64,000 bases of DNA from Gammaproteobacteria bacterium (GTDB lineage Bacteria > Pseudomonadota > Gammaproteobacteria > Steroidobacterales > GCA-2729495). A program made the position numbers and the translations under genes. Numbering within the stretch: the first letter of the stretch is position 1; the number at the start of each line of letters is the position of its first letter. Positions 1,179-46,286 of this stretch are shown in pieces. The stretch lies in the NCBI GenBank assembly GCA_030066665.1, contig JASJBD010000056.1:1-64000 (forward strand). The letters are read 5' to 3'. The notes beneath the pieces were generated by a model. That model saw nothing but the letters and a program-made list of their open reading frames with translations, was not told the DNA's origin and did no database searches.

Positions 1179-1189
1179 CTGTCTCACCC

Positions 1190-3715: not shown

Positions 3716-3718
3716 CGC

Positions 3719-7804: not shown

Positions 7805-8545
7805 ATGGGCAGATTGATGGTCATTACGGCTTTGTGTGCACTTCTTGTCGCGCCCCTGGCGCAGGCGAAGAAGCGCTATTACGAAGTCGTAGTGACCGAC
7901 CCCTACATCGAACTGCATACCGGTCCGGGCAGGGGTTATCCAATCTTTCATGTGATCGATCGTGGCGAGCAGATCGAGGTGATCAAACGCCGCACCGACT
8001 GGTTCAAGGTTCGCAATGATCGTGGCGTCACCGGCTGGGCCAGCGCCCAGCAAATGGCCCGCACCATGGAACCCACCGGCCGGCCGGCAAAGATCGAGAA
8101 TCCCGATCGCGATGACTACACGAGCCGCCAGCGCGAAGCCGGCATCATGCTCGGTGACTTCGAGGGTGCCAACGTTATCTCTGCTTACGGCTCCTGGCTA
8201 TTCACGCCCAATTTGGGTGCCGAAATCTGGGGGTCGCTCCTGACGGGTGACTTCTCGAACGGGTGGATGGTCAACGCCAATATCGTGCACACACCTTTTC
8301 CGGAGTGGTGGATTTCGCCATTCCTGACATTGGGGACCGGCGTGCTGCACGTCGATCCGAAATCCAGCCTGGTCAGCGCGGAGGACAGAACTGACCAGAC
8401 AGCGCACGCCGGTATCGGTCTGCGCGCCCACCTTACCCGTCGGTTCCTGCTCCGGGCGGAGTACAAAACCTACAAGGTGTTCACCAGCAGGGACGACAAC
8501 GAGGAAGTCGCAGAATGGAAAGCCGGATTTTCGTTCTTCTTTTGA
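7805..8545 (+). CDS. SH3-domain protein with C-terminal outer-membrane beta-barrel domain
   Basis: Signal peptide, SH3b-like IELHTGPGRGYPIFHVIDRGEQIEVIKRRTDWFKVR, then beta-barrel-like repeats ending in EWKAGFSFFF (aromatic C-terminus). Confidence 0.75.
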   Translation: MGRLMVITALCALLVAPLAQAKKRYYEVVVTDPYIELHTGPGRGYPIFHVIDRGEQIEVIKRRTDWFKVRNDRGVTGWASAQQMARTMEPTGRPAKIENPDRDDYTSRQREAGIMLGDFEGANVISAYGSWLFTPNLGAEIWGSLLTGDFSNGWMVNANIVHTPFPEWWISPFLTLGTGVLHVDPKSSLVSAEDRTDQTAHAGIGLRAHLTRRFLLRAEYKTYKVFTSRDDNEEVAEWKAGFSFFF

Positions 8546-9168
8546 TTGTGGCGGTCAGCCTGACAACGGGCTGCAGTCGAAACAAGGTCGTGGACAACTC
8601 CGCGGACGCGACCGTGCCCGTTATCAATCCCGAAGTCGCGCGCCGCGACATCAAGGAACCCAAGATTGACAACGAGAATTTCGAAATCGGCGCGTTCGTC
8701 GGCTACAAGAGCGTGGAGGATTTCGAATCCAACATGGTCTGGGGTGCCAAGCTGGCGTACCACGTGACTGAGCACCTGTTTGTCGAAGGTACTTACGGCC
8801 AGACCGACGTGGGCGAGACCAGCTTCGAGAAGTTGAGCGGTGGTGCCCCGCTGCTCACCGACGACGAGCGCACCTTGAAGTACTACGACGTGTCGATCGG
8901 ATTCAACATCTTGCCGGGCGAGGTGTTCATCGGTCGCAGGTTGGCCTTCAACAGCGCCCTGTACGTGATCGGCGGCGTCGGTAACACCGAATTCGCGGGC
9001 GATGATTTCTTCACGGTCGTGTTTGGCGCCGGCTACCGAGTGCTGGCGACTGACTGGCTCGCGCTGAACTTCATGGTGCGCGACCACATGTTCGATTCGG
9101 ATCTGCTGGGTGAGGAAAAAACCACCCACAACATTGAGTTCAACTTAGGTCTGACCCTGTTCTTCTGA
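8515..9168 (+). CDS. Outer-membrane beta-barrel domain lipoprotein
   Basis: Lipobox VSLTTGC; alternating beta pattern ending EFNLGLTLFF; overlaps the preceding gene. Confidence 0.75.
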   Translation: MESRIFVLLLIVAVSLTTGCSRNKVVDNSADATVPVINPEVARRDIKEPKIDNENFEIGAFVGYKSVEDFESNMVWGAKLAYHVTEHLFVEGTYGQTDVGETSFEKLSGGAPLLTDDERTLKYYDVSIGFNILPGEVFIGRRLAFNSALYVIGGVGNTEFAGDDFFTVVFGAGYRVLATDWLALNFMVRDHMFDSDLLGEEKTTHNIEFNLGLTLFF

Positions 9169-9191
9169 CGGAAAGGCTCGTCGCGGAGGAG

Positions 9192-9713
9192 ATGCAAATG
9201 CAAAATTGGCAACGAAGAATTCTCTTGTTCGTACTCGGCGGAATGCTCGTAGCAAGCGGGATGGCCGGTGCCAGCAGCACCGAAGTGTCAGGGCCGGCGC
9301 CGGATTTCACATTGGTGGATCGCAGCGGGCAGCCGGTGTCCCTCAGTGAACTGAAAGGGCAGGTCGTACTCATCAACTTCTGGGCGACCTGGTGTGGTCC
9401 CTGCCGCAAGGAAATGCCGTTACTGGAGCAGCTCTACTCCCGATACGAAGCGCTGGGCTTCACGCTGCTCGGCGTCAACGTGGAAGAGGGCGACGTGAAT
9501 GCGGAAGCCTTTCTCGCTGAGACGCCGGTGTCGTTCCCGATCCTGTTCGATCCGGAGAACCGCGTGAGCAAACTGTACGACGTGTCGGCGATGCCGAGCA
9601 CGGTGCTGGTCGACCGGCAGGGCAACATGCGTTTCCTGCACCACGGTTACCAGGACGGCTACGAAAACATCTATCAGGACCAGATTCGCCAGCTGGTTCG
9701 CGAGCGGGGCTGA
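9192..9713 (+). CDS. TlpA-family thiol-disulfide oxidoreductase
   Basis: Signal peptide; FWATWCGPCRKEMPLLEQL thioredoxin motif. Confidence 0.9.
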   Translation: MQMQNWQRRILLFVLGGMLVASGMAGASSTEVSGPAPDFTLVDRSGQPVSLSELKGQVVLINFWATWCGPCRKEMPLLEQLYSRYEALGFTLLGVNVEEGDVNAEAFLAETPVSFPILFDPENRVSKLYDVSAMPSTVLVDRQGNMRFLHHGYQDGYENIYQDQIRQLVRERG

Positions 9714-9714
9714 C

Positions 9715-9954
9715 GTGATGCAAGCTGCAACACGCCATTGGCTCGTGGTCGTGGCTGTCGGTGTGCTCGTCACCCTCGGCGGCTGTGCGATAGAACCCTG
9801 GGTCAAGCCCTACGAACGCGACCGGCTGGCCGATCCGATCATGAGTTTCGACCGCGATCCGATCTCGAACGCTTATATCCATCACGTCTACGAAGCCCGT
9901 GAGGGCGCCCGCGGGGCGTCCGGCAGCGCGGGAGGTGGTTGTGGCTGTAACTGA
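9715..9954 (+). CDS. DUF4266-like small lipoprotein
   Basis: 79 aa; GGCAIEPWVKPYERDRLADPIM...GASGSAGGGCGCN, typical of DUF4266 proteins. Confidence 0.75.
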   Translation: MMQAATRHWLVVVAVGVLVTLGGCAIEPWVKPYERDRLADPIMSFDRDPISNAYIHHVYEAREGARGASGSAGGGCGCN

Positions 9955-11086
9955 GCCAAAGCTACTCTGCCGCCTCGCGACGGGCCTGCTGACCCTGGTC
10001 GCGGGCGTGTCGCTGGCGGGTGTGTTGCCCGAGGACCGGCTCGATGCGCTGTACCACTACTACAATGGTGGTGGTGTCGAGATCGACGGCCCGTCGATTC
10101 TCGCCCGCAAATCCATCGGCCAGCACGTGTCTGTGTCCGGCAATTACTACGTGGACACCGTCAGCAGCGCGTCCATTGACGTCCTCACCACCGCGAGCCC
10201 GTACGAAGAAGAGCGTACCGAGCACAGTTTCGGCGTGGATTTCCTGCGCGGCGACACGATCATGAGCCTGGCTGTGGGCGAGAGTGACGAAGATGATTAC
10301 CAGGCCGAGACCATCAACGTGGGTATCGCGCAGGAAATTTTCGGCGGCCTGACGACCGTGACAATGGGTTACGGCGTCGGCGACGATACCGTGCGCCGGA
10401 ACGGTGACCCGGATTTCGAGGATTACGTGGAGCGGCAAGCCTACCGGCTCGGCATTTCACAGATTCTCACGCGCAGCCTGATCGTCTCGCTCAACTACGA
10501 AGTCATCAGTGACGAGGGGTTCCTGAATAACCCGTATCGGTCGGTCCGCTATCGTGACCCGAACAGCGGCACGGGCTATAGCTTCCAGCCCGAGGTTTAC
10601 CCGCGCACGCGGACCAGTAACGCCGTCGCCATCCGCGGCCGCTATTTCCTGCCCTATCGGGCCGCGGTCCACCTGGGCTATCGCTATTTCACGGATGACT
10701 GGGATATCGCTGCGCACACCGGGGAAGTGGGTTATACGCATCCCTTGGGCGCCTTCAACCTCGATCTGCAGTATCGGTATTACACGCAAACCAAGGCCGA
10801 TTTCTACAGCGATCTGTATCCGTATCAAGATGCGCAAAACTTCCTGGCCCGCGACAAGGAGCTGAGTACCTTCCAGAGTCATACAATCCGCTTCGGCGTC
10901 AGCTACGACTTCCTGGAGAACGGCTGGACCTTCCTGGAGCGCGGCGCAATCAGCGCGTTCTATGATCACATCATGTTCAACTATGACGACTTCCGCGATC
11001 TGACCAGCGACGAGCTGGTCGGTCAGGAGCCGCTGTATTCCTTCGACGCCGACGTCATCCAGCTGTTCATCTCGTTCTGGTTCTGA
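9941..11086 (+). CDS. DUF3570-like outer-membrane barrel protein
   Basis: Longest ORF 9899-11086; likely GTG start near 9941. Follows the DUF4266-like gene; aromatic beta-rich sequence ending DVIQLFISFWF. Confidence 0.75.
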   Translation: MAVTEPKLLCRLATGLLTLVAGVSLAGVLPEDRLDALYHYYNGGGVEIDGPSILARKSIGQHVSVSGNYYVDTVSSASIDVLTTASPYEEERTEHSFGVDFLRGDTIMSLAVGESDEDDYQAETINVGIAQEIFGGLTTVTMGYGVGDDTVRRNGDPDFEDYVERQAYRLGISQILTRSLIVSLNYEVISDEGFLNNPYRSVRYRDPNSGTGYSFQPEVYPRTRTSNAVAIRGRYFLPYRAAVHLGYRYFTDDWDIAAHTGEVGYTHPLGAFNLDLQYRYYTQTKADFYSDLYPYQDAQNFLARDKELSTFQSHTIRFGVSYDFLENGWTFLERGAISAFYDHIMFNYDDFRDLTSDELVGQEPLYSFDADVIQLFISFWF

Positions 11087-11096
11087 CCGTTCTGCG

Positions 11097-11175
11097 CACG
11101 GGCCGTGGTGGCGAGAACTCGCCGCGGCGACTTTCAAATCAGGAGCAAGGCGAATTGTCGCCGGCGCGGCCCGTG
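11097..11175. repeat. Structured intergenic repeat, copy A
   Basis: CACGGGCCG...CGGCCCGTG terminal inverted repeat enclosing GGCGAGAACTCGCC and GGCGAATTGTCGCC hairpins; near-identical to 22967-23044. Confidence 0.85.
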
Positions 11176-11241
11176 TCCCGAAATGATCAGAACCGGCGTG
11201 GTGATATACTGCGCGCGCTTCAGGCCCACGGAATCCGGGAC

Positions 11242-11580
11242 ATGGCAATCAACACGAAAGGCATGAACGAAAGCCAGTTCTGGCTGCTGACCGCGCTGAG
11301 CGCGTTGGCGCTGATCCTGGTGCTGATCTGCACCGGGCTATTCTTCGACAATCGTTCAACTCAGGCGGAAGTGAACGCCCGCCAGCAGTACATAAACCAG
11401 ACAGTTCAGTTGGGGCAGCTCAACACGCAGGTTGCCCAGTTTCTTGCGAACCTGGCCGTGCAGACCAACGATCAACGGATTCGCGAGTTACTGGCTGCCA
11501 ACGGTATTACGATCACTGAACGACCGGCCGAAACGCCCGTGGAAACGCCCGGGCCGGCGCCGCTTGGACCGCAGGAGTGA
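11242..11580 (+). CDS. Small single-TM coiled-coil protein
   Basis: Internal start MAINTKGMNESQFWLLTALSALALILVLICTGLFF; helical C-terminal tail. Confidence 0.6.
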   Translation: MAINTKGMNESQFWLLTALSALALILVLICTGLFFDNRSTQAEVNARQQYINQTVQLGQLNTQVAQFLANLAVQTNDQRIRELLAANGITITERPAETPVETPGPAPLGPQE

Positions 11581-11583
11581 GGC

Positions 11584-11898
11584 ATGGCCTGGATTGAGCT
11601 GAAAAACAGGGACGGTTCGTTCTCGCCTTTTCTACCGTTGTTGCTGCTGGCCTGGACCCTCGTCACGCTGGCCGGCCTGCAGACCTACGGGCTTCTGAGC
11701 GAACGAGACCAATTGGCGACCGCGCTGGTGAACCAGGCGACCCCTATGGAAGAGGCGCAGAAGATTCGCGCACAGCTGCAATCGCTCGCGACCGGCGCCG
11801 CTGACCTCGCCGTGCAAGGCAACGAAAACGCACAACGCCTGATCGACGAACTGGCCAGGCAAGGTGTCACAGTCAATCCATCCAGCACCGCGCCGTAG
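11584..11898 (+). CDS. Small single-TM coiled-coil protein, paralogous to the upstream gene
   Basis: N-terminal TM segment; ATGAADLAVQGNENAQRLIDELARQGVTVNP resembles ANLAVQTNDQRIRELLAANGITITERP of the preceding ORF. Confidence 0.6.
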   Translation: MAWIELKNRDGSFSPFLPLLLLAWTLVTLAGLQTYGLLSERDQLATALVNQATPMEEAQKIRAQLQSLATGAADLAVQGNENAQRLIDELARQGVTVNPSSTAP

Positions 11899-11899
11899 C

Positions 11900-12862
11900 A
11901 TGCCCGTCGCGCTGTTCCTGACGGTGATGCTGTGCACCGCGCCCGCGCTCGCCGCGTGGCACAGCGACACGCAAAGCAAGATGGGGACTCGCATCGAGGT
12001 GCGTTTCTGGCACGAGGATGCTGCCGAGGCCGCCACTCTGCTAAGCGCTGCGATGGCGGAAGTCGATCGCATCGAAGCGGCGATGAGCACCTACCGCGAG
12101 AGCTCGGAAATCTCCCACGTCAATCGCAACGCCCACGCCGGCGCGATCGTGATTTCCGAAGAGTTGTTTATCTTGCTGGAACGCTCACTCGAACTGTCCA
12201 GCCGCACGGGCGGTGCCTTCGATATCACGTATGACAGCGTCGGGCAGCTCTACGACTATCGCGAGCGCGAGCGTCCTGACCAGGCCGCGATCGACGCTCG
12301 GCTCGCGGCAATCGACTTTCGCATGGTCGAATTAACGCCGGCGTATCGCAGCATCAGATTTCTGGCCGATGGCGTGCGCATCAACCTGGGGGGTATCGCC
12401 AAGGGCCATACGGTGGAGGCGGTGATCAATTTGCTGCGCGATGCCGGCGTCGAGCACGCGCTGGCGACGGCGGGCGGCGACACCCGATTGCTGGGAGACC
12501 GCATGGGTAAGCCGTGGGTTGTCGGCATTCGTGACCCCGACGACGCGGACGGGCTCGTCACCCGGCTGGCGCTGGCCGACGAAGCGATTTCCACATCCGG
12601 TGACTACGAACGCTTTTTTGACGAAGATGGCGTGAGGTACCACCACATTCTCAACCCGGACACCGGGCGTTCCGCGGGCGCCTTGCGGAGCGTTACCGTA
12701 ATCGGCCCGGACGCAATCATGACTGACGGCCTGTCGACCAGCGTATTCGTGCTGGGTCCTGAACGCGGCATGGCGTTGATCGAAAGCCTGCCCGGCTATG
12801 AGGCCATCCTGGTCCAACCGGACCACTCGGTGCGGTTCTCACAGGGCCTTATTTCTCAATAA
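11900..12862 (+). CDS. apbE: FAD:protein FMN transferase (ApbE family)
   Basis: MSTYRESSEISHVNR, GGIAKGHTVE, ATAGGDTRLLG, YHHILNPDTGRSA, MTDGLSTSVFVLG are ApbE family signatures; signal peptide at the N-terminus. Confidence 0.9.
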   Translation: MPVALFLTVMLCTAPALAAWHSDTQSKMGTRIEVRFWHEDAAEAATLLSAAMAEVDRIEAAMSTYRESSEISHVNRNAHAGAIVISEELFILLERSLELSSRTGGAFDITYDSVGQLYDYRERERPDQAAIDARLAAIDFRMVELTPAYRSIRFLADGVRINLGGIAKGHTVEAVINLLRDAGVEHALATAGGDTRLLGDRMGKPWVVGIRDPDDADGLVTRLALADEAISTSGDYERFFDEDGVRYHHILNPDTGRSAGALRSVTVIGPDAIMTDGLSTSVFVLGPERGMALIESLPGYEAILVQPDHSVRFSQGLISQ

Positions 12863-12960
12863 TTTTTCCCTTAACGTAAGTAGCCGGTGATCCGTGACCC
12901 GGGTCACAGGAATCCCCCCGATGCCCTGAGAACATAGCCCCACTGGTGGGTCCGTGTGCC

Positions 12961-13080
12961 GGATCTGCCCGTCAGACAAGGGCAAACCCGCCGAAAGTCG
13001 GGGACGCAAAGCCACCGGTCCGGGCACCCCTGCCAGGGTGTCGGACAGCGGGGCTACCGGAGCGCGCGCGGGTGCAGCTC
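12961..13080 (+). ncRNA. Cyclic di-GMP-I (GEMM-I) riboswitch
   Basis: Conserved core AAGGGCAAACCCGCCGAAAGTCGGGGACGCAAAGCC with GAAA tetraloop stem, P3 hairpin gtccgggcaccc/gggtgtcggac, then AGCGGGGCTACCGG; upstream of the redoxin gene. Outer P1 boundaries approximate. Confidence 0.88.
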
Positions 13081-13129
13081 CCGCGGTGCGAGCGTTCCTG
13101 ACTGGTTGCGGTAGTAAGGGGCAATCGCA

Positions 13130-13687
13130 ATGCGCAGCATCGGGGCACAATTCGCAGGCGGCCGGCATGGATGGCTGGTCGCTGTCGTCCTGTTCGCGAT
13201 CGTTGCGAGCGTCCAGGCCGGCTCCAAACTCGTCGGAGAGTCGGCGCCCGATTTCGCGTTGAAAAGCACGGCAGGCAAGAACCTGCGACTCAGTGAATAT
13301 CGCGGTGAGCTCGTGCTGCTCACGTTCTGGTCGGCCGGCTGTGGTCGCTGCATCGAGCAATTGCCCCAACTCAACCGCTTGCAGGATCACTATGCGGATC
13401 TGCCGGTCAGGATTCTTAGCGTGAACCTGGATCGCAAGTTGAAACGGGTCCACGAAGCCGAGACAGATCTCGGGCTCGGGTTCCCGGTGCTCCTGGACCA
13501 ACGCAAGAAAGTCACACGTCGCTACGACCCGAATCGTTTACCACTGACAGTGATTCTCGACCCGGCAGGAGTCGTCCGCTACCGGCACGAGGGCTTCAAG
13601 CCGGGACACATGGATTTGTATTTCCAGCAACTGGATGGATTGCTGGCCGAACAGGCCGGCGTGTTGATGAAGGCAGGCACCCAATGA
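13130..13687 (+). CDS. Redoxin/TlpA-like thiol-disulfide oxidoreductase
   Basis: GESAPDFALKSTAGKNLRLSEYRGELVLLTFWSAGCGRCIEQLPQL. Confidence 0.85.
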   Translation: MRSIGAQFAGGRHGWLVAVVLFAIVASVQAGSKLVGESAPDFALKSTAGKNLRLSEYRGELVLLTFWSAGCGRCIEQLPQLNRLQDHYADLPVRILSVNLDRKLKRVHEAETDLGLGFPVLLDQRKKVTRRYDPNRLPLTVILDPAGVVRYRHEGFKPGHMDLYFQQLDGLLAEQAGVLMKAGTQ

Positions 13688-14223
13688 ACAGAAGTTCCCA
13701 CCGATCCTTTCGTGTGATCGACCTCGTGCTGCTGGCGACGCTGTTTGTCGCCGCACCGGCGTGGTCGGAATCCACGGCAGCCAGCATGGACGACGAAATT
13801 CAGGACCTCAAAGCCGAGATTCTCGATTTGAATCGGGAACTGTTTCTGCTCGAGGAGGAACTCCTGTTCCCGGCCAACACGCAGATCGCAATCTTCGTAT
13901 CCATGGATGTTGGCGAGTTTTTTGCACTGGACTCCGTGCAGGTCAAGCTGGACGGTAAAGAAGTTGGTAATTACCTGTACACGGAGCGCGAGGTGGCAGC
14001 ATTACATCGTGGTGGTGTGCACCAGCTCTTCCTGGGCAATGTCAAAACCGGTGATCACGAGCTGGTTGCGATTTTCACTGGACTTGGACCGCACGGTCGC
14101 GAGTATCGTCGCGGCGCCACGTTGAATTTTGACAAACAGATCGGCGCGAAATTCGTCGAATTACGCATTACCGATCGCGAGATCAAGCAGCAGCCTGAAT
14201 TTTTCGTCCGGGAGTGGGAGTAG
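13684..14223 (+). CDS. Secreted hypothetical protein
   Basis: Signal peptide, coiled-coil start, beta-rich C-terminus; coupled to both neighbours. Confidence 0.65.
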   Translation: MNRSSHRSFRVIDLVLLATLFVAAPAWSESTAASMDDEIQDLKAEILDLNRELFLLEEELLFPANTQIAIFVSMDVGEFFALDSVQVKLDGKEVGNYLYTEREVAALHRGGVHQLFLGNVKTGDHELVAIFTGLGPHGREYRRGATLNFDKQIGAKFVELRITDREIKQQPEFFVREWE

Positions 14224-14226
14224 GGG

Positions 14227-16119
14227 ATGCGCTCGGGCGCGGGTGACCGCAGCAAGCTGGCCGCGGCCTCCACGTTTCTCGTGGGGGTCGCGGTCATGCT
14301 GTTGTGTGCGCCTGCTGCAACGGCGCGCGATAAGCCGGGTATTGAAGTGCGCGATATGCACTACGGGGAAGTGCTGTTCCACTTCTACCAGCAGGACGAT
14401 TTCACCGCGCTGAATCACCTGCTCGCGGCAAGGTATGCCGGGCGCATCAGTCATCATGACGAAGAATCGGAGCTCCTGCTGGGCGGTCTGTTTCTCGCCT
14501 ACGGACAGCATCGGCAGGCAGGTGAGATCTTCGATCGTCTGCTGAGTGAATCCGCCGACAAAAAGGTCCGTGACCGCGCCTGGTTCTACCTCGGCAAGGT
14601 TCGGTTCCAGCGGGGACTATTCGCCGATGCGGAAGCCGCGCTGCGCCAGGTCGGCAAAAAACTGCCCAAACGTCTCGCGGCTGAGCACAAGCTGCTGCTC
14701 GCGCAGAGTCTGATGAATCAGGACCGCTTCGACGAAGCGGCCACAGTACTCGAACAATGGAAGGGCCCCGGCGACTGGACCGCCTACGCACGGTTGAATC
14801 TCGGCGTGGCGTTTGTGCGCGCGGGCAGGCTTGCGGATGGCGCCGCCGCGCTGGACCGGGTTGGTCGCATCAGCACGCGCAGCGATGAATTGCGCAGCCT
14901 GCGTGACAAAGCCAATCTCGCGCTGGGATACGCGTTCCTGCAATCCGAACAACCGGAAGCCGCGCGCGATGTGCTGTCGCGCGTCCGTATCAATGGACCG
15001 TTTTCCAACAAAGCGCTGCTGGGCGTTGGCTGGGCAGATGCGCTGCAGGCAGACTATCGCAACGCACTGGTCCCATGGCTCGAGCTCCGCGACCGTGACT
15101 TGCTGGACAGCGCCGTGCAGGAATCCCTGCTGGCGGTGCCGTACGCGTTTGGCCGCTTGCAGGCACATGGCTCGGCCGTTGAGCATTACCTGACCGCAAT
15201 TGGTGCGTTCGATACCGAGATTGCGCGCATCGATCAGGCGATCGAGCGGGCGCGAACCGGCGAGCTGGTTCCTGCCCTGTTGCAAACCGACGATCCGGAT
15301 ATCGGCCGCTGGTATTGGCAGTTGCAGGATGTGCCCGACAACGCGGACGCGCGCTACCTCTATCACCTGGTCGCAAACCACGATTTCCAGGACGGCTTGC
15401 GGAACTTCCGTGACTTGCTTGCACTGGGCGGCTACCTGCGCGACTGGTCGACCAAGCTGGACACCTTCGAGGACATCCTGGACACCCGGACGCAGGCTTA
15501 TGAGCAACGTGTGCCGGTCGTCGAAGCCAGTTTCAGTGCGGAAAACCTGCAGGAACTGCATGCACGCCGCGATGCCCTGGCGGCGCGCCTGGACGAGATT
15601 GCCCGTGAACGTGATGTCGCCGGTCTGGCAACGACCGCGGAACGACAGCAATGGGAACTTCTGAGCAGCCTGGAAGACTCGCCGGCGTGGTCGCATGCCG
15701 GGGCCGCCGATGCCCGCGACAAACACCGACTGCTAAAGGGTCTGCTGGCGTGGAACCTCGACCGCGACTACAAACTGCGACTGTGGCAGCAGCGCAGCGC
15801 GTTGGGCGATCTCGATCAGGTCATTGCCCGGGCCGACGCGGCCGCGGCAAAAATGAACGCGGTCAAAGGCGATATACCGGCAGAAATCGATGGCTACCGC
15901 GCCCGACTGGCGGAGCTGCGCCCGCGCCTGGATCGCATGCAATCCGGCGTCACTGTGGCGCTCGGTGGTCAGCGGGAGCACCTGCAGATGCTGGCCGTCA
16001 CTGAACTCGAGGCCCAGCGCGAGCGGTTGGCGACGTATCGCGTGCAGGCGCGTTTCGCACTGGCCACCATTTATGACCGTGCGAACGCCACAGCCGCGAA
16101 CCAGGAGCCGCAGCCATGA
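14227..16119 (+). CDS. TPR-repeat secreted protein
   Basis: 630 aa, repeated TPR-like helices (AGEIFDRLLSESADKKVRDRAWFYLGKVRFQRGLFADAEAALRQV). Confidence 0.8.
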   Translation: MRSGAGDRSKLAAASTFLVGVAVMLLCAPAATARDKPGIEVRDMHYGEVLFHFYQQDDFTALNHLLAARYAGRISHHDEESELLLGGLFLAYGQHRQAGEIFDRLLSESADKKVRDRAWFYLGKVRFQRGLFADAEAALRQVGKKLPKRLAAEHKLLLAQSLMNQDRFDEAATVLEQWKGPGDWTAYARLNLGVAFVRAGRLADGAAALDRVGRISTRSDELRSLRDKANLALGYAFLQSEQPEAARDVLSRVRINGPFSNKALLGVGWADALQADYRNALVPWLELRDRDLLDSAVQESLLAVPYAFGRLQAHGSAVEHYLTAIGAFDTEIARIDQAIERARTGELVPALLQTDDPDIGRWYWQLQDVPDNADARYLYHLVANHDFQDGLRNFRDLLALGGYLRDWSTKLDTFEDILDTRTQAYEQRVPVVEASFSAENLQELHARRDALAARLDEIARERDVAGLATTAERQQWELLSSLEDSPAWSHAGAADARDKHRLLKGLLAWNLDRDYKLRLWQQRSALGDLDQVIARADAAAAKMNAVKGDIPAEIDGYRARLAELRPRLDRMQSGVTVALGGQREHLQMLAVTELEAQRERLATYRVQARFALATIYDRANATAANQEPQP

Positions 16120-18917
16120 AACTTGTCATGCTCGTGACAAGTATCAGTCTGTGCGGCGGACTGTGGCCGTTTGGTGGCGGTGAAAAGGAATACGACGAAA
16201 AAGACACCATCGCCGATCTGAAGCCCCGGCCCATGGAAATGAAACGTCAGCCCGATGTGGCCGACGGCGCCGCCCTGGCGCGGCAGCAGTACGAGGCTTT
16301 TCTCGGCGTTTCGGATGGCTATCCCGGCATGCAGCTCGAAGCCATGCGGCGTCTCGCTGACCTGAATCTGGCTGCCGGTGAAGAGGCCGGCATGGAAGGG
16401 CTCGATGACGCGCAGTTCTATGCCGATGCCATCAAGCTCTACGAACAGTTGCTGATCGCCAACCCGGACGCGGCCGAACGCGACCTGATCCTGTATCAGC
16501 TCGCGCGGGCCCACGAGATCACCGGCGAGATCGATGCGGCGCTGGGCATTCTGGACGACCTGGTGACCAACTATCCAGCCAGCAAGTTTTACGACGAAGC
16601 GCAGTTTCGTCGCGGCGAAATCCTGTTCGTGAACAAACGTTACCGCGAGGCCGAGGCCGCTTATGCCGCGGTCATTACATTCGGGAGTGTTTCCAGCTTC
16701 TACGAGCAGTCCCTGTACAAGCACGGCTGGTCGCTGTTCAAGCAGGGCCTGCATGACGAAAGTCTCGACTCCTTCCTGGCACTGCTCGACGCGCGGCTCG
16801 ATGTCGAGGCCGGACCGGCGGCCGCGTTGGAAGCCATGTCGCGCCCGGACCGCGAGTTGGTCGACGATACCTTCCGGGTGCTGGCGATCAGCTTCTGGTA
16901 TATGGATGGCGCCGACAGCCTGGACGAGTTGCTGGCACGGCGCGCCGATCTGGCTTACCCGGACTTGTTGTACGCCGGACTCGGTGACCTGTACCTGGAC
17001 AAGGAACGCTTCCAGGACGCAGCGGAAACCTACGCGGCGTTCGTGGTCATGCGGCCGACGCACGAAGCGGCACCGGGATTGCAGAAGCGAGTCATCGAGG
17101 CGTACACACTGGGCCGCTTCCCGAGCCTGGTGCTGGAAGCGAAAGAAGACTACGTGCGCTTTTACGGATTGGACGCAGGCTTCTGGGCCGGCCGCCAACC
17201 GGCTAATTACCCGGAGGTCGTCGCGAACCTGAAAGAGAGTCTCAGCGACCTGGCGGGTTATGACCATTCGCGCGCGCAGGCGGACGATGACGTCGAAGCT
17301 TATGAGCGAGCTGCGGACTGGTACCGTCGCTACCTCGCTTACTTCCCCGAGGACCCGGACTCGGCGCAGCGCAGTTTCCTGCTGGCAGAAATCCTGAACG
17401 AACTCGGCCGCTACGGCGAGGCGACCGACCAGTACCTGGACGCGGCCTATGCGTATGGCCCGCATCCGCAGGCCGCCGAAGCTGCTTACGCCGCGATCCT
17501 GGTCGCGCGCCAGCACGAAGCGCAACTTGGACCGGAATTGCTGCCGGCCTGGCGCGCCCGCACGCTGGAAGAATCGCTGCGTTTCGCCGACAGTTTTCCG
17601 CAGCACGAGCAGGCTGGACCGGTCCGGACCAAGGTTGCGGAGGAGTTGTTCGAAGGCGGACAGCTCGCGCGCGCCGTCGAAATTGCCGGTCTGGTCGTGA
17701 CCATGCAGCCACCGGTCGCGATGGAGCTCGAGCGGACGGCCTGGACGGTCATGGCTCACGCGCAATTTGACCTGGCGAACTATGCCGAGTCAGAACAGGC
17801 GTATCTGCGGTTGCGCATGCTGCCGCTGGAGGGTGAAGCGATCGCGGCAGAGATCGACGCCCGTATTGCCGCGTCGGTTTACCGCCAGGGTGAGCAGGCG
17901 CGTGATGCGGGTGATATCGACACCGCGGTGGCCCAGTTCTTGCGCGTTGGCGCGGCCGCGCCGGGCACGGAGACCGTGCCGGTTGCAGTCTACGATGCCG
18001 CTGCCCTGCTGATCAGCGCGGGTCGATACCAGGAGGCCGTTCCGGTACTCGAGGAGTATCGCAACACCTTTCCGGGCCACGAATTCAATGACGACGTCAC
18101 CCAGAAGCTGGCTGTCGCGCGACGCGAATCCGGTCAGACGGTCGCGGCCGCGATGGAATACGAGCGTGTGGCCAGTCTTGCCAGCGTCGACAACGAGATG
18201 CATCGCGAAGCCCTGTGGGAAGCGGTGGAACTCTACGAAGCAGCGGACCGAATCGCGGATCAGCGGCGCGTATATACGGAGATCGTGCAGCGGTTCCCGG
18301 CACCGCTGTCGGAGTCCATCGAAGCGCGCCAGAAACTGGCGGACCTGGCGCGTGATGCCAACGATTACCAGGATCGACGCCGCTGGCTGGAAGATATCGT
18401 GAAGGCCGATGCGATGGCGAACGTGGAACGTTCGGAAAGAACGCGCACGCTCGCGGCCCGTGCCAGCCTCGAGCTTGCCGAACCGCTGCGAGATGCATTC
18501 ATCGTTGCGAGCCTGACCATTCCGCTGAAAGACAGTCTTAAGGTCAAGAAGAGTCGCATGGAGCTGGCACTGGCGGCCTACGGCAATGCGGCTGCGTATG
18601 GCATCGCCGAGGTCACGACTGCAGCGACCTACCAGATTGCGAACCTGTACTACCGGCTGAGCCAGGATCTGATGAATTCCGAGCGCCCGGCCGAACTGAA
18701 CGCGGAAGAACTCGAGCAGTACGACATCCTGCTGGAAGAGCAGGCCTTCCCGCTCGAGGAGCAGGCCATCGACATTTTCGCAAGCAATGCGAAGCGTGCC
18801 GCCGACGATGTCTATGACGAGTGGGTGCAGCGCAGTTTCGAACGCCTGGCCGAGCTGATGCCCGGCCGTTACGCGAAGTCAGAGAGGAGCGAAAACCTTG
18901 TTGCACTATTGGACTGA
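16116..18917 (+). CDS. Large TPR-repeat protein
   Basis: 933 aa with many TPR units; overlaps the preceding and following genes. Confidence 0.8.
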   Translation: MKLVMLVTSISLCGGLWPFGGGEKEYDEKDTIADLKPRPMEMKRQPDVADGAALARQQYEAFLGVSDGYPGMQLEAMRRLADLNLAAGEEAGMEGLDDAQFYADAIKLYEQLLIANPDAAERDLILYQLARAHEITGEIDAALGILDDLVTNYPASKFYDEAQFRRGEILFVNKRYREAEAAYAAVITFGSVSSFYEQSLYKHGWSLFKQGLHDESLDSFLALLDARLDVEAGPAAALEAMSRPDRELVDDTFRVLAISFWYMDGADSLDELLARRADLAYPDLLYAGLGDLYLDKERFQDAAETYAAFVVMRPTHEAAPGLQKRVIEAYTLGRFPSLVLEAKEDYVRFYGLDAGFWAGRQPANYPEVVANLKESLSDLAGYDHSRAQADDDVEAYERAADWYRRYLAYFPEDPDSAQRSFLLAEILNELGRYGEATDQYLDAAYAYGPHPQAAEAAYAAILVARQHEAQLGPELLPAWRARTLEESLRFADSFPQHEQAGPVRTKVAEELFEGGQLARAVEIAGLVVTMQPPVAMELERTAWTVMAHAQFDLANYAESEQAYLRLRMLPLEGEAIAAEIDARIAASVYRQGEQARDAGDIDTAVAQFLRVGAAAPGTETVPVAVYDAAALLISAGRYQEAVPVLEEYRNTFPGHEFNDDVTQKLAVARRESGQTVAAAMEYERVASLASVDNEMHREALWEAVELYEAADRIADQRRVYTEIVQRFPAPLSESIEARQKLADLARDANDYQDRRRWLEDIVKADAMANVERSERTRTLAARASLELAEPLRDAFIVASLTIPLKDSLKVKKSRMELALAAYGNAAAYGIAEVTTAATYQIANLYYRLSQDLMNSERPAELNAEELEQYDILLEEQAFPLEEQAIDIFASNAKRAADDVYDEWVQRSFERLAELMPGRYAKSERSENLVALLD

Positions 18918-19542
18918 ACGCGCCTGGCCTTGCCTGGCTGCTGCACTGCTGGTCCTGACCGGGTGCGCATCCGCTCCGGAGCGCAGTGAGCAGGCGGTCG
19001 AGGTTGATGGCGATAAAGAACCGAGCTATCCGCAGGCGGCGCTGGAAAAATACGCGTACGCGCTGGGACTCATGGACGCTGGTCGGTTTGAAGAAGCCGT
19101 CGCGGCCATGCGCAAGCTCACCGAGAAATACCCGGAGTACGCCGGGCCGTACACGAATCTCGCGATTCTTGCGGCGGCGGGCGGCGATGATGACAGCGCC
19201 GCGGCATACCTCCAGCAGGCCCTCGACGTTTGCTCGAACTGTGCGCCGACGTTGAACCAGATCGGCATCATGCACCGCAAGGCCGGCCGCTTCGCTGCCG
19301 CCGAAGAAGCCTATCTCGCCGCGGTCGAAAACGATCCGTCCTATGCGCTGGCCTACTACAACCTCGGCGTGTTGTATGACCTGTACCGCCAGCAGCACGA
19401 GCTGGCGGTCGAACACTACGAGCATTATGTCGCCTTGTCCGGCGATGCCGAGCGCACCAAGCAGGTCGGCAAGTGGATTGCCGATTTGCGCCGGCGGTTG
19501 GGTGAGAGCCCGCGCACGGCCCAGGCAGGAGGCGAGCTGTGA
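18898..19542 (+). CDS. TPR-repeat lipoprotein
   Basis: Lipobox LVLTGCAS; TPR repeats (ALAYYNLGVLYDLYRQQHELAVEHYEHYV). Confidence 0.8.
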   Translation: MLHYWTERAWPCLAAALLVLTGCASAPERSEQAVEVDGDKEPSYPQAALEKYAYALGLMDAGRFEEAVAAMRKLTEKYPEYAGPYTNLAILAAAGGDDDSAAAYLQQALDVCSNCAPTLNQIGIMHRKAGRFAAAEEAYLAAVENDPSYALAYYNLGVLYDLYRQQHELAVEHYEHYVALSGDAERTKQVGKWIADLRRRLGESPRTAQAGGEL

Positions 19543-19970
19543 TGCGCGTTCTCCTGATACCGCTTCTTGTAATCACTTTTTCGGCCAGCGCCACGGAGCC
19601 GGCGCCCGGGGACACGGAGGTCCCGGCCGAACCCTTTGCCGGCGCTGCGGCGGCGCCAGCTGATCCGCTGGCGGACGAGATGCCGATTCCGCTGGATCCG
19701 CTGGCCGGCGAATCCATGGTGCCGGCCGAGCCGTCGCCGCGCATCATGGCCGCCGCCAGGGACCGCCTGGAGCTGGATTCGACGTCGATTCGCGGCAACC
19801 AGGAGCTGCCGCGGGTGCTGACGATCGTGCCGTGGAAGGACCCGGCGCTGGGTGACCTGGTTGGCAAACCGGTGAATAGCCTCGTGGATGAGGCATTGGC
19901 ACCCGTGGACCGTGAAGTGTTCCGCAGACAGACGTCTTATTTCGATCAATTGTATGGGGGCGCGGAGTGA
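19539..19970 (+). CDS. Secreted hypothetical with Pro/Ala/Asp-rich repeat segment
   Basis: ATG overlapping the preceding stop; signal peptide; PAEPFAG/PADPLAD/PLDPLAG/PAEP repeats. Confidence 0.6.
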   Translation: MMRVLLIPLLVITFSASATEPAPGDTEVPAEPFAGAAAAPADPLADEMPIPLDPLAGESMVPAEPSPRIMAAARDRLELDSTSIRGNQELPRVLTIVPWKDPALGDLVGKPVNSLVDEALAPVDREVFRRQTSYFDQLYGGAE

Positions 19971-20070
19971 CGCAGGTCACACGGATGTGACCGCAACGAA
20001 TCGGGCCTGACGACGGTACGACGTTACCGTCGTTGGCCATGTCGAGTGATCTCAGAGGAGGAGAGCAGTC

Positions 20071-20733
20071 ATGGATTTCTATTCCGGAATCGTTAACTTT
20101 TTCCAGAACGGCGGGGTCTTCATGTACCCGATTGTCGTCGTGCTGGCGCTGGGAATGGCGATTGCCGTTGAGCGCTGGATCTACCTGAACAAGACCAGCA
20201 TCAGCAACAAGATCGTCTGGAACAAGGTCACGCCTTTCATAAAGGCTGGCAAGTTCCAGGAAGCCGTCAACGTAACGCAGAAGTCGAAGGCAGCGATCGC
20301 CACGATCCTGACTTACGGCCTGCATCGCATCAAATCGGCCGCGCGGCGTGTCGACATCGAAGCGGCCATGGAGGAGAGCCTGATGGAAGTCGTGCCGCGA
20401 CTCGAAAAGCGCACGCACTATCTGGCGACCTTCGCCAATGTGGCGACGCTGCTCGGCCTGCTGGGCACCATTATCGGCCTGATTCGCGCCTTTACCGCGG
20501 TGGCGGCCGCGAACCCGGCAGAGAAGGCCGACATGCTGTCCGCCAGTATCTCGGTCGCGATGAACACGACCGCTTTTGGCCTGATGGTCGCGATTCCGCT
20601 CCTGCTGGTGCACACGCTGCTGCAGAGCAAGACCACCGAAATCGTCGACAGCCTGGAAATGGCGTCGGTGAAATTTCTGAACACGATTGATGAGCGGCGC
20701 CACGAGGCGCAGGCGGCCCAGGCGGCATCATGA
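20071..20733 (+). CDS. MotA/TolQ/ExbB-family proton channel
   Basis: FMYPIVVVLALGMAIAVERWIYL; ANVATLLGLLGTIIGLIRAFTAVA; MNTTAFGLMVAIPLLLVHTLLQ. Confidence 0.9.
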   Translation: MDFYSGIVNFFQNGGVFMYPIVVVLALGMAIAVERWIYLNKTSISNKIVWNKVTPFIKAGKFQEAVNVTQKSKAAIATILTYGLHRIKSAARRVDIEAAMEESLMEVVPRLEKRTHYLATFANVATLLGLLGTIIGLIRAFTAVAAANPAEKADMLSASISVAMNTTAFGLMVAIPLLLVHTLLQSKTTEIVDSLEMASVKFLNTIDERRHEAQAAQAAS

Positions 20734-21251
20734 GCAAATTCCGCAGCAGGCATCGCCGCCGCGACCCGGCGGATCTGGACATCACAGCGTTCATGAACCT
20801 GATGGTGATCCTGGTGCCGTTCCTGTTGATCACAGCCGTGTTCTCCCGCCTGGCGATTCTGGAGCTGAACCTGCCCTCCTCCGGGGATCAGCCCAATGAC
20901 ATGCCGGAGACCATGCAGCTGGAAGTCATCGTGCGCGCCGACCGTCTTGAGGTCGGCGAGCGGAACGGCGGCCTGCTGACGCGCCTGCCGAAGCAGGACG
21001 AAGCTCACGACTATGCCGGCTTGACCGAGTACCTGAAAAAGGTGAAAGCCACGTTCCCGGACAAGCTGGACGCCGCCATCCTGCTCGAGCCCGACGTACC
21101 CTATGACGTGTTGGTGCAGGTCATGGATGCGGTACGCCTGTTCGAAGAGGTCGAGCTGGACGAACACGGCCAGCCGGTGAGTGAGCCCATCAAGGCGGAA
21201 TTGTTTCCGGAGATTTCCATCGGCGACGCGCCGGTGTTGAAACGGAGCTGA
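20730..21251 (+). CDS. ExbD/TolR-family protein
   Basis: DLDITAFMNLMVILVPFLLITAVF, ExbD TM segment with Asp; C-terminal periplasmic domain. Confidence 0.85.
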   Translation: MSKFRSRHRRRDPADLDITAFMNLMVILVPFLLITAVFSRLAILELNLPSSGDQPNDMPETMQLEVIVRADRLEVGERNGGLLTRLPKQDEAHDYAGLTEYLKKVKATFPDKLDAAILLEPDVPYDVLVQVMDAVRLFEEVELDEHGQPVSEPIKAELFPEISIGDAPVLKRS

Positions 21252-21254
21252 ACC

Positions 21255-21794
21255 ATGCAGATGTCCAAACGCGCCAAGCGGATGGAGAAACGCAACCTGC
21301 GGGGCAAGCGCGGTGTTGCGCTGAACCTCGTGTCCCTGATGGATATCTTTACGATCCTCGTGTTCTTCCTGCTGGTGAACTCGTCGGACGTGGAAGTTCT
21401 GCCAAATGCGAAGGACGTGCAGCTGCCGGAATCCGTCGCCGAACAGAAAGCGCGTGAGAACGTCGTGGTGCTGGTAACCGGCGAGCAGATCCTGGTGCAG
21501 GGCACACCTGTCGCCAACGTCGATCAGGTCATGCGAGGCAAGAGCATCGTGATTCCAGCGCTGGAGAGTGCGCTGCGTCAGCAGACCGATCGCGTCTTGC
21601 GGAAGGCGTCGATGGCCGAGGTCATCGATCGCGAGGTTACGATCATGGGCGACCGGGAACTGCCTTACCGTTTGCTCAAACGAGTAATGGCGACCTGCAC
21701 CGCCGCGGATTACGGGCGGATATCGCTGGCCGTACTGCAACGCGCACCGTCGCGTCAGGCCGCCGTGAACAACCGCGCAGAGCCGAAGGGGTAA
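21255..21794 (+). CDS. ExbD/TolR-family protein (second)
   Basis: VALNLVSLMDIFTILVFFLLVNSSDVEVLPNAKDVQLPES. Confidence 0.88.
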   Translation: MQMSKRAKRMEKRNLRGKRGVALNLVSLMDIFTILVFFLLVNSSDVEVLPNAKDVQLPESVAEQKARENVVVLVTGEQILVQGTPVANVDQVMRGKSIVIPALESALRQQTDRVLRKASMAEVIDREVTIMGDRELPYRLLKRVMATCTAADYGRISLAVLQRAPSRQAAVNNRAEPKG

Positions 21795-21801
21795 GACACC
21801 A

Positions 21802-22749
21802 GTGATTGCTTTCTATCGGGTTTACGCGCTGCCCTGGGAACTGGGCCTGGAGCAGGACGATGATTTTCGCGAGCTGCTCAAGCGCGTCGTCATCGGGGTC
21901 TTCGTCCTCGCGGTGGTGTTCTCCTTTCTGCCGGTGCCGGAGATTGACCGCGCCGAGATCGAGGAAGTCCCACCACGCTTTGCCAAGCTTCTGCTGGACA
22001 AGCCCAAGCCGCCACCGCCCCCGCCGGTGGTGAAAAAGGAGCCTGAAAAGCCGAAGCCGGAGCCGGACAAACCCAAGCCCGTCGAGAAAAAGGTCGTCGA
22101 GGTCAAGCCGGATCCGAAGCCCAAGATCGACAAGACCGAGCAGGCCCGTAAGAAGGCCGCCATGGCGGGACTGCTGCCCTTTGCCGATGAGCTGGCCGAC
22201 CTGCGTGATAACGAGGCGGTCGCCAGTGTTGCCAACAAGCGCAACCTGGCGGGCGCGGCCGGTGCTGCGGCGCGTTCCGAACGTTCGATGATTACGTCGT
22301 CTGCCGGCCGTGCCAGCAGTGGGATCAACACCGCCAGCATGAGTCGTGACACTGGCGGCGCGGGCCTGGTTGGCCGGGACACGACGACGGTGTCCAGCAC
22401 GGTCGCCGGTTTGGACGCCCAGCGGCCCGAGGCGGAGCGCTCCGGCGATCCGGACCGACCGGCGCGCAGCCGTGAAGAAATCGAGATGGTTTTCGACAAG
22501 AACAAGGGTGCGATTTACGCCTTGTACAATCGGGCTTTGCGTCGCGACCCGAGTTTGCAGGGCAAACTCGTACTGCGCCTGACCATCGAGCCATCGGGTG
22601 CGGTGTCAATGTGCGAAGTGGTCTCCAGCGAGCTGGAAGATGACGAACTGCAGCGCAAGCTCGTGCAGCGCGTGAAGCTGTTCCGCTTCGTCGACAAGGA
22701 TGTCGCACCGGTTACGACAACCAAGCCGATAGACTTCTTCCCGGCCTGA
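21802..22749 (+). CDS. TonB/AgmX-PglI C-terminal-domain energy transducer
   Basis: TM plus Pro/Lys-rich linker (PKPPPPPPVVKKEPEKPKPEPDKPKP) and C-terminal SREEIEMVFDKNKGAIYALYNRALRRDPSLQGKLVLRLTIEPSGAV. Confidence 0.85.
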   Translation: MIAFYRVYALPWELGLEQDDDFRELLKRVVIGVFVLAVVFSFLPVPEIDRAEIEEVPPRFAKLLLDKPKPPPPPPVVKKEPEKPKPEPDKPKPVEKKVVEVKPDPKPKIDKTEQARKKAAMAGLLPFADELADLRDNEAVASVANKRNLAGAAGAAARSERSMITSSAGRASSGINTASMSRDTGGAGLVGRDTTTVSSTVAGLDAQRPEAERSGDPDRPARSREEIEMVFDKNKGAIYALYNRALRRDPSLQGKLVLRLTIEPSGAVSMCEVVSSELEDDELQRKLVQRVKLFRFVDKDVAPVTTTKPIDFFPA

Positions 22750-23072: not shown

Positions 23073-23984
23073 TCAGAGTTCGCTGCAGGACGAACCGAAC
23101 CTGAAGCACGAATAGCAACGGTGATGGGCGAGCATGATACGCGCCCGCATCGCGTGAGTGAGGTTACTGCCGAGATCGTAGGTCGGGTCGTCATCCACCA
23201 GCGTGCAGGCGTAGACCCGCATGCGGCCGCCCACCTTGATGACCATCTTGCTGAACGCGCACATGAATGCGCGCCGCGTTTGCTCGGTCTGGTAACGCGT
23301 CATGCAGTCCTCGGTGACGTCCGGCACCTCGCGCGTCGCGCCCGGCACATCGAAATCGGGAAAAGCCACAATGCGAATGTCATCCGGCAAGCCGCTGTCC
23401 CGGAGTATTCCCTGAAACTCTGCATCGACCGCGTCGCTGTCTTCGTCGGGCTCCATCTGCCGCGCCAGCGACACGTGAAATCCCATGTCATGCAGTTCGC
23501 GCATCCCTTGCAGGGCCTTGTCGAAATTACCGGCGCCTCGACCAGCGTCGTGGCGCTGGCGATCGGGCCAATCAATACTGATGCGGAAGGAGATGGGATA
23601 CGCCGTCTCCGTCAATCGCCTGATCTGGTGCAACCGTTTGAGCACCGGGTCCGTGCCGTTGGTCAATACGAGGCACGGTCGACGGCTCGCAGCGTACCCG
23701 AGGATATTGACAAAGTCCTTGACGATAAACGGCTCGCCACCGGTAAATGAAAATTGCTGGACGCCGAGCGACACGGCCTCATCCATGAACGGCCGGGCAT
23801 CTTTCAGCGTGATGCGCTGCAGGCGATTATCGCCGGGCTTGGAACCCTCCAGGCAGAACGGGCAGTCGAGATTGCAGGCCGTACCGGTGTGGAACCACAG
23901 CTCATCGAGCGCATGCGGCTGGATATAGCCGCGCGGCTGGCCATCGGCGGCCACGAAAAAGTCTCGCTGAGTTCTGGTCAACAT
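23073..23984 (-). CDS. Radical SAM protein
   Basis: GTACNLDCPFCLEGSKP (CX3CX2C cluster motif), FSFTGGEPFIV, Cys-rich C-terminus CYSCFRFGSSC. Confidence 0.88.
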   Translation of the reverse strand: MLTRTQRDFFVAADGQPRGYIQPHALDELWFHTGTACNLDCPFCLEGSKPGDNRLQRITLKDARPFMDEAVSLGVQQFSFTGGEPFIVKDFVNILGYAASRRPCLVLTNGTDPVLKRLHQIRRLTETAYPISFRISIDWPDRQRHDAGRGAGNFDKALQGMRELHDMGFHVSLARQMEPDEDSDAVDAEFQGILRDSGLPDDIRIVAFPDFDVPGATREVPDVTEDCMTRYQTEQTRRAFMCAFSKMVIKVGGRMRVYACTLVDDDPTYDLGSNLTHAMRARIMLAHHRCYSCFRFGSSCSEL

Positions 23985-24682
23985 TCAGTCATGCCCTTGC
24001 TGTCCTCTATCGGACGATAATGACGCGCCAGGGTTCCCGGGGAAATGCCCGCGAGGTAGCCCAGTGCCAGGATCCGGTTGGCCAGGCTGCGGCGCAGCCA
24101 GCCGTCCCGCTCCCAACGCCGCGGCGAGACCCCGATAGCTTGCGCGGCGCGATGGAACCGGCCCTGTCGTCGCAGGGCGCGGATCAGCGGGACCTCCTCG
24201 AACAGCGGTTGGTCCGGGAATCCGCCGGCCTGACGGTACGCGTCCGCGCGCGCGAATAATCCCTGGTCACCGTACGGCACTCCGATCCGGGTGCGCCAGT
24301 TGATCAGGGTCTGCAGCACCGATTTGTGCCAGCGTGGCGAACCGGTGAAGCGAAACCGGAAATATCCGCCCACAGCGCCGGCTCGGGCTGCCTGTCGAAT
24401 CGCCCGGGCTCCATCCCCCGGTGGTTCGGCATCGGCATGCAGAAACCACAGCAGCTCGCCGCTGGCCGCGTCGGCGCCGCGCGCCAGTTGCCGACCGCGG
24501 CCAGCATCGGACGCGACATAGATCGCGCCGTGCTGCTCGGCCTGTTCACGACAATCCGGACTGCGCGCGCCGTCGACGACAATGATTTCCTCCGCGCTAT
24601 CGAGTGCGCGACCGAGTCGCTCCAGCAGATTGCCCAAGGCCGGCTCTTCGCCGAGCACCGGGATGACAATACTGAGCTTCAC
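23978..24682 (-). CDS. TIGR04283-like glycosyltransferase (arsenosugar-type clusters)
   Basis: Likely GTG start overlapping the upstream stop; KLSIVIPVLGEEPALGNLLERL...IIVVDGARSPD...LWFLHADAEPP. Confidence 0.8.
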   Translation of the reverse strand: MKLSIVIPVLGEEPALGNLLERLGRALDSAEEIIVVDGARSPDCREQAEQHGAIYVASDAGRGRQLARGADAASGELLWFLHADAEPPGDGARAIRQAARAGAVGGYFRFRFTGSPRWHKSVLQTLINWRTRIGVPYGDQGLFARADAYRQAGGFPDQPLFEEVPLIRALRRQGRFHRAAQAIGVSPRRWERDGWLRRSLANRILALGYLAGISPGTLARHYRPIEDSKGMTEC

Positions 24683-25353: not shown

Positions 25354-25434
25354 GGAGCGGAAGCATACCGTGCTTCATGGAACCTTTTTCCCGCGTGTTG
25401 GACCAACACCAGAGCCGACCCCGGAGGAGAATCG

Positions 25435-46233: not shown

Positions 46234-46286
46234 TGTGCCAAAGGGGACATTCCTGGTAGGAATTTCCCCGTGCTATTCTAGCTGCG

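Follow-up and report, generated by a model that had tools for sequence, protein, structure and literature searches.

The locus and its genes

The stretch of DNA analysed here, called the window below, is the 64,000-nucleotide piece of contig JASJBD010000056.1 from a gammaproteobacterium of the order Steroidobacterales; the genome assembly of this host is 87% complete. A locus spanning about 1-22749 of the window carries around 21 adjacent genes, including a core set related to the Agl, Glt and Nfs proteins, which in Myxococcus belong to the gliding and spore-coat machines. The locus probably encodes a Glt/Nfs-type trans-envelope machine with a built-in motor, which would assemble or move a surface layer bearing haem and flavin.

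Three blocks can be distinguished. Block A is cytD-lamGcyt-tatX (3-5008, divergent), block B is cytPD40-sh3barrel-barrel2-tlpA1-DUF4266-DUF3570(-apbE), and block C, the core, is tlpA2-hypC-gltC-gltD-gltE-hypD-aglR-aglQ-aglS-gltG. The features are as follows.

3-1232, minus strand: tatX, Tat-signal protein, truncated by the window start (block A)
1190-3715, minus strand: lamGcyt, lipoprotein with LamG domain (PF13385, 70 bits) and two CXXCH haem motifs (block A)
3719-5008, minus strand: cytD, secreted, with a single CXXCH, divergent from cytPD40 (block A)
5141-7801, plus strand: cytPD40, lipoprotein with PD40 propeller, hydrazine synthase alpha-like middle domain and two CXXCH (block B)
7805-8545, plus strand: sh3barrel, SH3 domain (PF08239) and outer-membrane barrel (block B)
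8515-9168, plus strand: barrel2, outer-membrane barrel of the GltA/GltB/NfsA/NfsB family, TIGR04565 (block B)
9192-9713, plus strand: tlpA1, exported TlpA-like thioredoxin fold with CGPC, PF00578 (block B)
9715-9954, plus strand: DUF4266 lipoprotein with C-terminal CGCN, PF14086, 82.8 bits (block B)
9899-11086, plus strand: DUF3570 outer-membrane barrel with SSAS and TTAS motifs, PF12094, 148 bits (block B)
11155-11580, plus strand: hypA, small membrane-anchored protein restricted to the genus
11584-11898, plus strand: hypB, small membrane-anchored protein restricted to the genus
11864-12862, plus strand: apbE, periplasmic flavin transferase, PF02424, 272 bits
12972-13062, plus strand: aptamer of a c-di-GMP-I-GGC riboswitch (c-di-GMP, cyclic diguanosine monophosphate), Rfam RF03167, 66.6 bits, E 1.5e-13
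13130-13687, plus strand: tlpA2, second TlpA-like protein, with CGRC, PF00578 (first gene of block C)
13684-14223, plus strand: hypC, conserved exported protein, coiled helix and beta-sandwich
14227-16119, plus strand: gltC, GltC/NfsC-like tetratricopeptide repeat (TPR) protein
16116-18917, plus strand: gltD, GltD/NfsD-like TPR protein
18898-19542, plus strand: gltE, GltE/NfsE-like TPR lipoprotein
19539-19970, plus strand: hypD, exported protein with the conserved motif ELPKVLYIVPWK
20071-20733, plus strand: aglR, ExbB/MotA-like stator, PF01618
20730-21251, plus strand: aglQ, ExbD-like, PF02472, Asn23 at the proton-site position
21255-21794, plus strand: aglS, ExbD-like, PF02472, Asp30 retained
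21802-22749, plus strand: gltG, transmembrane helix, proline linker and AgmX/PglI C-terminus

The original prediction had placed an Agl/Glt-like machine with an internal riboswitch at 7805-22749. All the gene types that it named are present, and the genes of this interval are co-oriented, many of them overlapping. The interval stands as a cluster but not as a limit, because the gap from the end of cytPD40 (7801) to 7805 is just 3 bases and the cytochrome genes on the opposite strand (3-5008) are conserved partners; DUF3570, DUF4266, hypC and hypD had gone unnamed.

Kinship of the core with Agl, Glt and Nfs proteins

Is the motor a relative of AglRQS, or of TolQR and TonB-ExbBD? Hidden Markov models (HMMs) were built from AglR, AglQ and AglS of the window's order and applied to loci of Myxococcus sp. 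CA023, Hyalangium and Sorangium that had been retrieved via MglA. The AglR model scores the tandem R-Q-S loci of these three genera at 124-161 bits and any other ExbB/TolQ at 83 or less; of the two ExbD proteins at the Myxococcus and Hyalangium loci, the first best matches AglQ and the second AglS. A maximum-likelihood tree, in which outgroup branches are long and sequences were trimmed with the gammaproteobacterial HMM, unites the window AglR, its relatives and six myxobacterial R-Q-S proteins (from Myxococcus, Hyalangium and Sorangium) in one clade with support of 98/94, apart from the TolQ and TtpC/ExbB of the same genome. The predicted kinship with Agl/Glt rather than with TolQR or TonB-ExbBD is thus borne out.

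Identity with TolQRA-Pal was rejected, as AglR falls outside the TolQ group and TolQR forms a separate locus elsewhere in the genome, on contig C96. A TonB-ExbBD identity was likewise discarded: the TonB_C similarity of GltG lies under the cut-off, and a TtpC-like gene, an ExbB-like gene and two tandem ExbD genes at contig C15:1189-3020 of the same genome (G000) are a separate TonB-type energiser. Because this C15 locus also has two ExbD genes, the arrangement of one ExbB-like and two ExbD-like proteins, which had been offered as a distinguishing mark of Agl systems, is not diagnostic and was dropped.

The periplasmic components point in the same direction as the motor. At one Myxococcus locus (L259), two TIGR04565 barrels are followed by GltC-, GltD-, GltE- and GltG-like genes in the same order as in the window, and the family HMMs match these at 39 (E 4e-11), 153, 108 and 52 bits, respectively; across Myxococcus loci the GltE model gives 108-184 bits. 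With NCBIfam models, GltC and GltG of this locus score 209 and 336 bits, under the gliding equivalog cut-offs. From its fit to the published description (PMC3858216), it is taken to be the nfsA-H operon. In the window, GltE has NF033758 as its top NCBIfam match, and the C-terminus of GltG matches the AgmX/PglI model NF033768 (65 bits, cut-off 40). The full GltG equivalog is not reached (39.7 bits against a cut-off of 650), and a search of GltG against the Protein Data Bank (PDB) gave no match. For the known counterparts, an interaction between AglR and GltG is on record (PMC3169522).

GltA and GltB are integral outer-membrane barrels that bind GltC (PMC4488436). The barrel2 protein matches TIGR04565 at 170 bits (cut-off 60), and sh3barrel at 31 bits, below the cut-off. 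The Myxococcus genome has five members of this family, each at a glt/nfs-type locus, and 14 control genomes have no member; two of the five lie directly upstream of a long open reading frame at the place of gltC, as in gltB-gltA-gltC. According to Luciano et al. (PMC3169522), gltA, gltB and gltF go back to the common ancestor of the Myxococcales and Bdellovibrionales. The matches, made at the level of the family, argue for a wider spread of GltA/B-family barrels and would revise this 2011 view.

Two further core proteins accompany the TPR set. The AlphaFold2 model of hypC (pLDDT 86.7, a per-residue confidence score) combines a coiled helix with a beta-sandwich and has no PDB match at E<=0.001; hypC itself is found class-wide, in 48 of the 226 genomes sampled from the class outside the order. 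hypD is conserved throughout the core loci, and a by-eye comparison with NfsF, for which it had been a candidate, showed no similarity. Several genomes with more than one hypC match (G006:C33, G300 and others) also hold a paralogous system, which has a hypC homologue of its own and a GltG-like protein of larger size (470-520 amino acids).

Judged by its sequences, core block C is a true relative of the Agl/Glt/Nfs machinery, and the Glt/Nfs-type machine is widespread in Gammaproteobacteria. The synteny of TPR, barrel and channel genes that the original prediction had called for is present across many families.

A divided proton site

In Myxococcus, the AglQ substitution D28N abolishes proton conductance and function (PMC3858216). 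At one Myxococcus R-Q-S locus, the AglQ aspartate is residue 28 counted from an in-frame methionine, in agreement with the published numbering. The window does not have the proton-site aspartate in both ExbD-like proteins: AglQ has Asn23 and AglS has Asp30, and the motor is therefore a variant of that of Myxococcus and not identical to it. The residue aligned to D28 is asparagine in 43 of 54 AglQ copies (27/38 in the order and 16/16 outside it), and the aspartate of AglS is kept in all 55 copies. Since AglQ has asparagine, AglS Asp alone would carry protons. If the asparagine form of AglQ is functional, the axle may be a heterodimer, or AglS may be the ExbD that does the work.

Ten loci on the trees have an aspartate-type AglQ (L037, L039, L043, L045, L046, L058, L065-L067 and L075). 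They form one group on the AglR tree, with weak support (61), and need four changes on the GltD tree, a discrepancy that points to exchange of motor genes between machines. This suggests that the motor may have been swapped horizontally within an otherwise vertically inherited machine. Whether AglQ and AglS form a heterodimer has been stated to be unknown (PMC9389320); because the homologous change kills Myxococcus AglQ (PMC3858216), the native split between AglQ-Asn and AglS-Asp makes this question directly testable.

Linkage of the core with surface redox genes

Do the redox genes belong with the core? The association was assessed in 197 genomes, 196 from the order plus the window's own, with three markers: GltG (NF033768, which also matches a second, larger GltG-like class), TIGR04565 and the short type of DUF3570. 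All three are present in 100 genomes and all absent from 68, with pairwise odds ratios of 50-350. GltG and DUF3570 lie on one contig in 46 pairs; 45 of these are at most 26 kb apart, with both genes on one strand in 31 and on different strands in 14. The synteny of the cluster is far above chance. Canonical DUF3570 proteins are weakly associated with the core, so that the link is to the short class.

The blocks have been rearranged yet retained in relatives. Block B is intact except for tlpA1 in 20 unlinked or divergent cases, one of them at a contig edge. In one family (f7), tlpA and apbE adjoin the core instead of block B, and in another (f11) block A reads into the core. Outside the order, 18 of the 20 core loci examined have block A, block B or apbE adjoining the core.

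What do the redox genes encode? ApbE, DUF3570, DUF4266 and a thioredoxin, the set known from flavinylation clusters, occur together in the window, and the CXXC of tlpA1 and the CXC of DUF4266 are conserved among homologues. The model of DUF3570 is a 16-strand barrel (pLDDT 86.9), for which a fold search returned generic barrels only, and it resembles porins and the PelB/PgaA exporters. Its [ST]xA[ST] motif is conserved, as SSAS and TTAS in the window and as SGAS in a few homologues; the known flavinylation system has two [ST]GA[ST] sites. DUF3570 is probably the substrate of ApbE and is predicted to be flavinylated; in the model, with strands counted from a periplasmic N-terminus, the SSAS/TTAS loop would lie on the side of the long, probably extracellular loops.

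Among the cytochrome-like proteins, cytPD40 matches PF18582 (60 bits) and PF07676 and, in the PDB, hydrazine synthase alpha (5c2v, E 1e-8); its CXXCH motifs are kept among homologues. cytD is weakly like PSD2/DUF1585 (PF07624, 22 bits, under the cut-off). lamGcyt is conserved across the compared loci and is adjoined in many by tatX, for which Pfam and NCBIfam gave no match. A third CXXCH is present in cytPD40 of seven loci (L052, L070, L071, L277-L279 and L282), with block A not seen nearby. Outward of tatX, the sole recurring shared gene is one resembling S-adenosylmethionine (SAM) methyltransferases, which lies beside tatX in nine loci (including L209, L211, L212, L222, L227 and L229) and may belong to block A.

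The c-di-GMP riboswitch

The riboswitch predicted inside the cluster is there: the aptamer sits in the gap between blocks B and C, 5' of the core unit. c-di-GMP is its predicted ligand, from the aptamer family. The G of GGC, which we take to be the position that selects between c-di-GMP and cAMP-GMP (cyclic AMP-GMP), is conserved in 16 of 16 aligned copies, and compensatory changes occur in 12 of 19 pairs. When the 40 core loci of the order are searched with a covariance model, 24 have the aptamer; 14 of the 24 were used to build the model and 10 are new, those of L065 and L066 are near copies, and that of L059 is weak (E 1.7e-4). It usually lies directly upstream of the tlpA-hypC core. At L052, L070 and L071, where block B continues into block C, it is upstream of cytPD40, and at L200 and L205 it precedes cytD, divergent to a block B that is unlinked from the core; the match at L193 is weak.

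The aptamer occurs in none of the 20 core loci outside the order. A universal role as a machine part was therefore rejected in favour of lineage-specific control. The window has no terminator-like site between aptamer and gene, and the leader fold is not unusual (z -1.1). Scans for promoters and terminators did no better than chance, so no expression platform is claimed. A second c-di-GMP-I riboswitch lies at 39611-39728 of the window (plus strand, 51.5 bits) and precedes the gene (39776-40366) of a small exported protein whose end is PEP-CTERM-like.

Proposed function and alternatives

How might these parts work together? Homology supports AglR and the AglQ/AglS pair as a proton stator of the MotA/ExbB class, GltG as the TonB-like transducer of AglRQS, and GltC, GltD and GltE, together with hypC and hypD, as the span across the periplasm to the GltA/GltB-family barrels. 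The stator would be driven by the proton motive force, as the original prediction had supposed, with AglS Asp as the sole proton carrier. The stator would move GltG, and force would reach the outer-membrane platform. In contrast to Myxococcus, the surface partners would be the haem lipoproteins cytPD40, lamGcyt and cytD and the DUF3570 barrel, probably flavinylated by ApbE; the TlpA proteins and DUF4266 would keep them redox-competent. The machine would thus assemble or move a redox-active surface layer. In the window's order, c-di-GMP may tune the motor and the periplasmic part through the riboswitch, which would tie the machine to a surface-attached state. Homology and synteny establish the family and the architecture, whereas the drive by protons, the flavinylation, the cargo and the sense in which the switch works are inferred.

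A bolder proposal is that of a new class of mechano-redox envelope machine, in which a Glt/Nfs-type proton motor constructs or moves a surface layer with flavin and haem, with c-di-GMP switching in one order, a heterodimeric ExbD axle and protons carried by AglS only. This reading is tentative and somewhat less likely than not.

Several observations weigh against a single machine of this kind. In some lineages block B is not linked to block C (in G065 they lie 590 kb from each other), a few genomes carry one of the two without the other, and the co-occurrence statistics ignore phylogeny. The likeness of GltC to its Myxococcus counterpart is weak, the lowest of the TPR set, and no known counterpart was recognised for hypC and hypD. 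The flavinylation motif is SSAS and not SGAS in most copies, and the riboswitch is confined to the order among the core loci compared. Phenotypes or biochemistry for the gammaproteobacterial members were not found in open-licence PubMed Central (PMC) papers.

Could selection instead be shared by two distinct systems, a Glt-like core and an extracytosolic DUF3570/ApbE/cytochrome redox system, which merely have a lifestyle and a genomic island in common? The unlinked blocks and the genomes with just one of them favour this, as do clusters of DUF3570, DUF4266, thioredoxin and ApbE that exist elsewhere without Glt genes (PMC8238504). However, a GltA/B-family barrel lies within block B, co-occurrence persists without linkage, f7 loci place tlpA and apbE with the core, and the riboswitch, upstream of the core in most loci, lies before cytD elsewhere. 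Two systems are therefore unlikely, if the strongest of the alternatives.

Alternatively, AglRQS-GltG might act as a TonB/Tol-like energiser that controls outer-membrane barrels through which polymers or metals are taken up or exported, with the redox proteins processing the substrate. The weak TonB_C similarity and proline linker of GltG fit this idea, as does the likeness of the DUF3570 model to porins and exporters. However, the barrels match neither a plug domain nor a family of TonB-dependent receptors and are not receptors of this kind, the same genome has separate TolQR and TtpC/ExbB/ExbD loci, and AglR lies outside the clades of both, which makes such an energiser improbable.

Surface gliding as in Myxococcus is very unlikely, since no MglA homologue was found in the host genome (87% complete) or in four single-contig relatives, with a positive Myxococcus control; although motor and core have their homologues in the gliding machine, the gene order resembles nfs, and in the published view the core does not by itself produce motility (PMC3169522). 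One locus, L077, in a record titled Comamonas sp. KCTC 72670, has an MglA 99% identical to that of Myxococcus, so that the record title is probably wrong.

Neighbouring features

Downstream of gltG, genes for a radical SAM protein, a glycosyltransferase 2, DUF2064 and a methyltransferase (23073-26478) are probably an unrelated biosynthetic cluster. A thiamine pyrophosphate (TPP) riboswitch is present at 46282-46383 of the window (plus strand, 70 bits).

Comparison with known systems

How much of the locus is already known? The core complex (PMC3169522, PMC3858216) and the DUF3570/ApbE cluster type (PMC8238504) are. Luciano et al. described a seven-gene gammaproteobacterial AglRQS-GltCDEG core complex of unknown function in 2011 (PMC3169522). 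The description of the locus as an under-described system therefore holds for its function and extent but not for its existence. As in that complex, AglR/Q/S and GltC/D/E/G are clustered in the window together with an extra gene absent from Myxococcales. The window differs in its linked or co-occurring GltA/B-family barrel, in its flavinylation and cytochrome genes, and in the riboswitch 5' of the core. In open-licence PMC main texts, no description turned up of the barrel-family link, the joint arrangement of three blocks, the riboswitch or the split between AglQ-Asn and AglS-Asp. The gene partners, with surface redox proteins and c-di-GMP, give concrete hypotheses for what the machine does.

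The c-di-GMP-I (GEMM-I) riboswitch family (RF03167/RF01051) is matched in aptamer sequence and covarying structure. Here it precedes a Glt/Nfs-type operon, a case for which open-licence PMC papers gave no parallel.

Nfs and AglRQS of Myxococcus xanthus (PMC3858216) share with the window the order barrels-C-D-E-(F)-G, the R-Q-S stator and the GltG/NfsG transducer. The likeness to Myxococcus Agl/Glt that had been predicted thus holds as homology but not in detail, as the gene order is nearer to the single nfsA-H operon than to the split glt clusters. In contrast to Nfs, the motor genes lie inside the cluster, no counterpart of NfsF or NfsH was recognised, hypC/hypD and the redox modules are extra, and AglQ has asparagine instead of Asp28.

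The published ApbE/DUF3570 flavinylation clusters (PMC8238504) have the tlpA1-DUF4266-DUF3570-apbE set in common with the window, as well as the CXC end and the [ST]xA[ST] motifs. They differ from the window, where DUF3570 is of a divergent short class (mostly 75-159 bits against over 300), SSAS replaces SGAS, DsbD is absent from the cluster, and there is a link to a Glt-type machine. The role of the DUF3570/ApbE systems has been called uncertain (PMC8238504), and through this link they would gain a possible mechanical partner.

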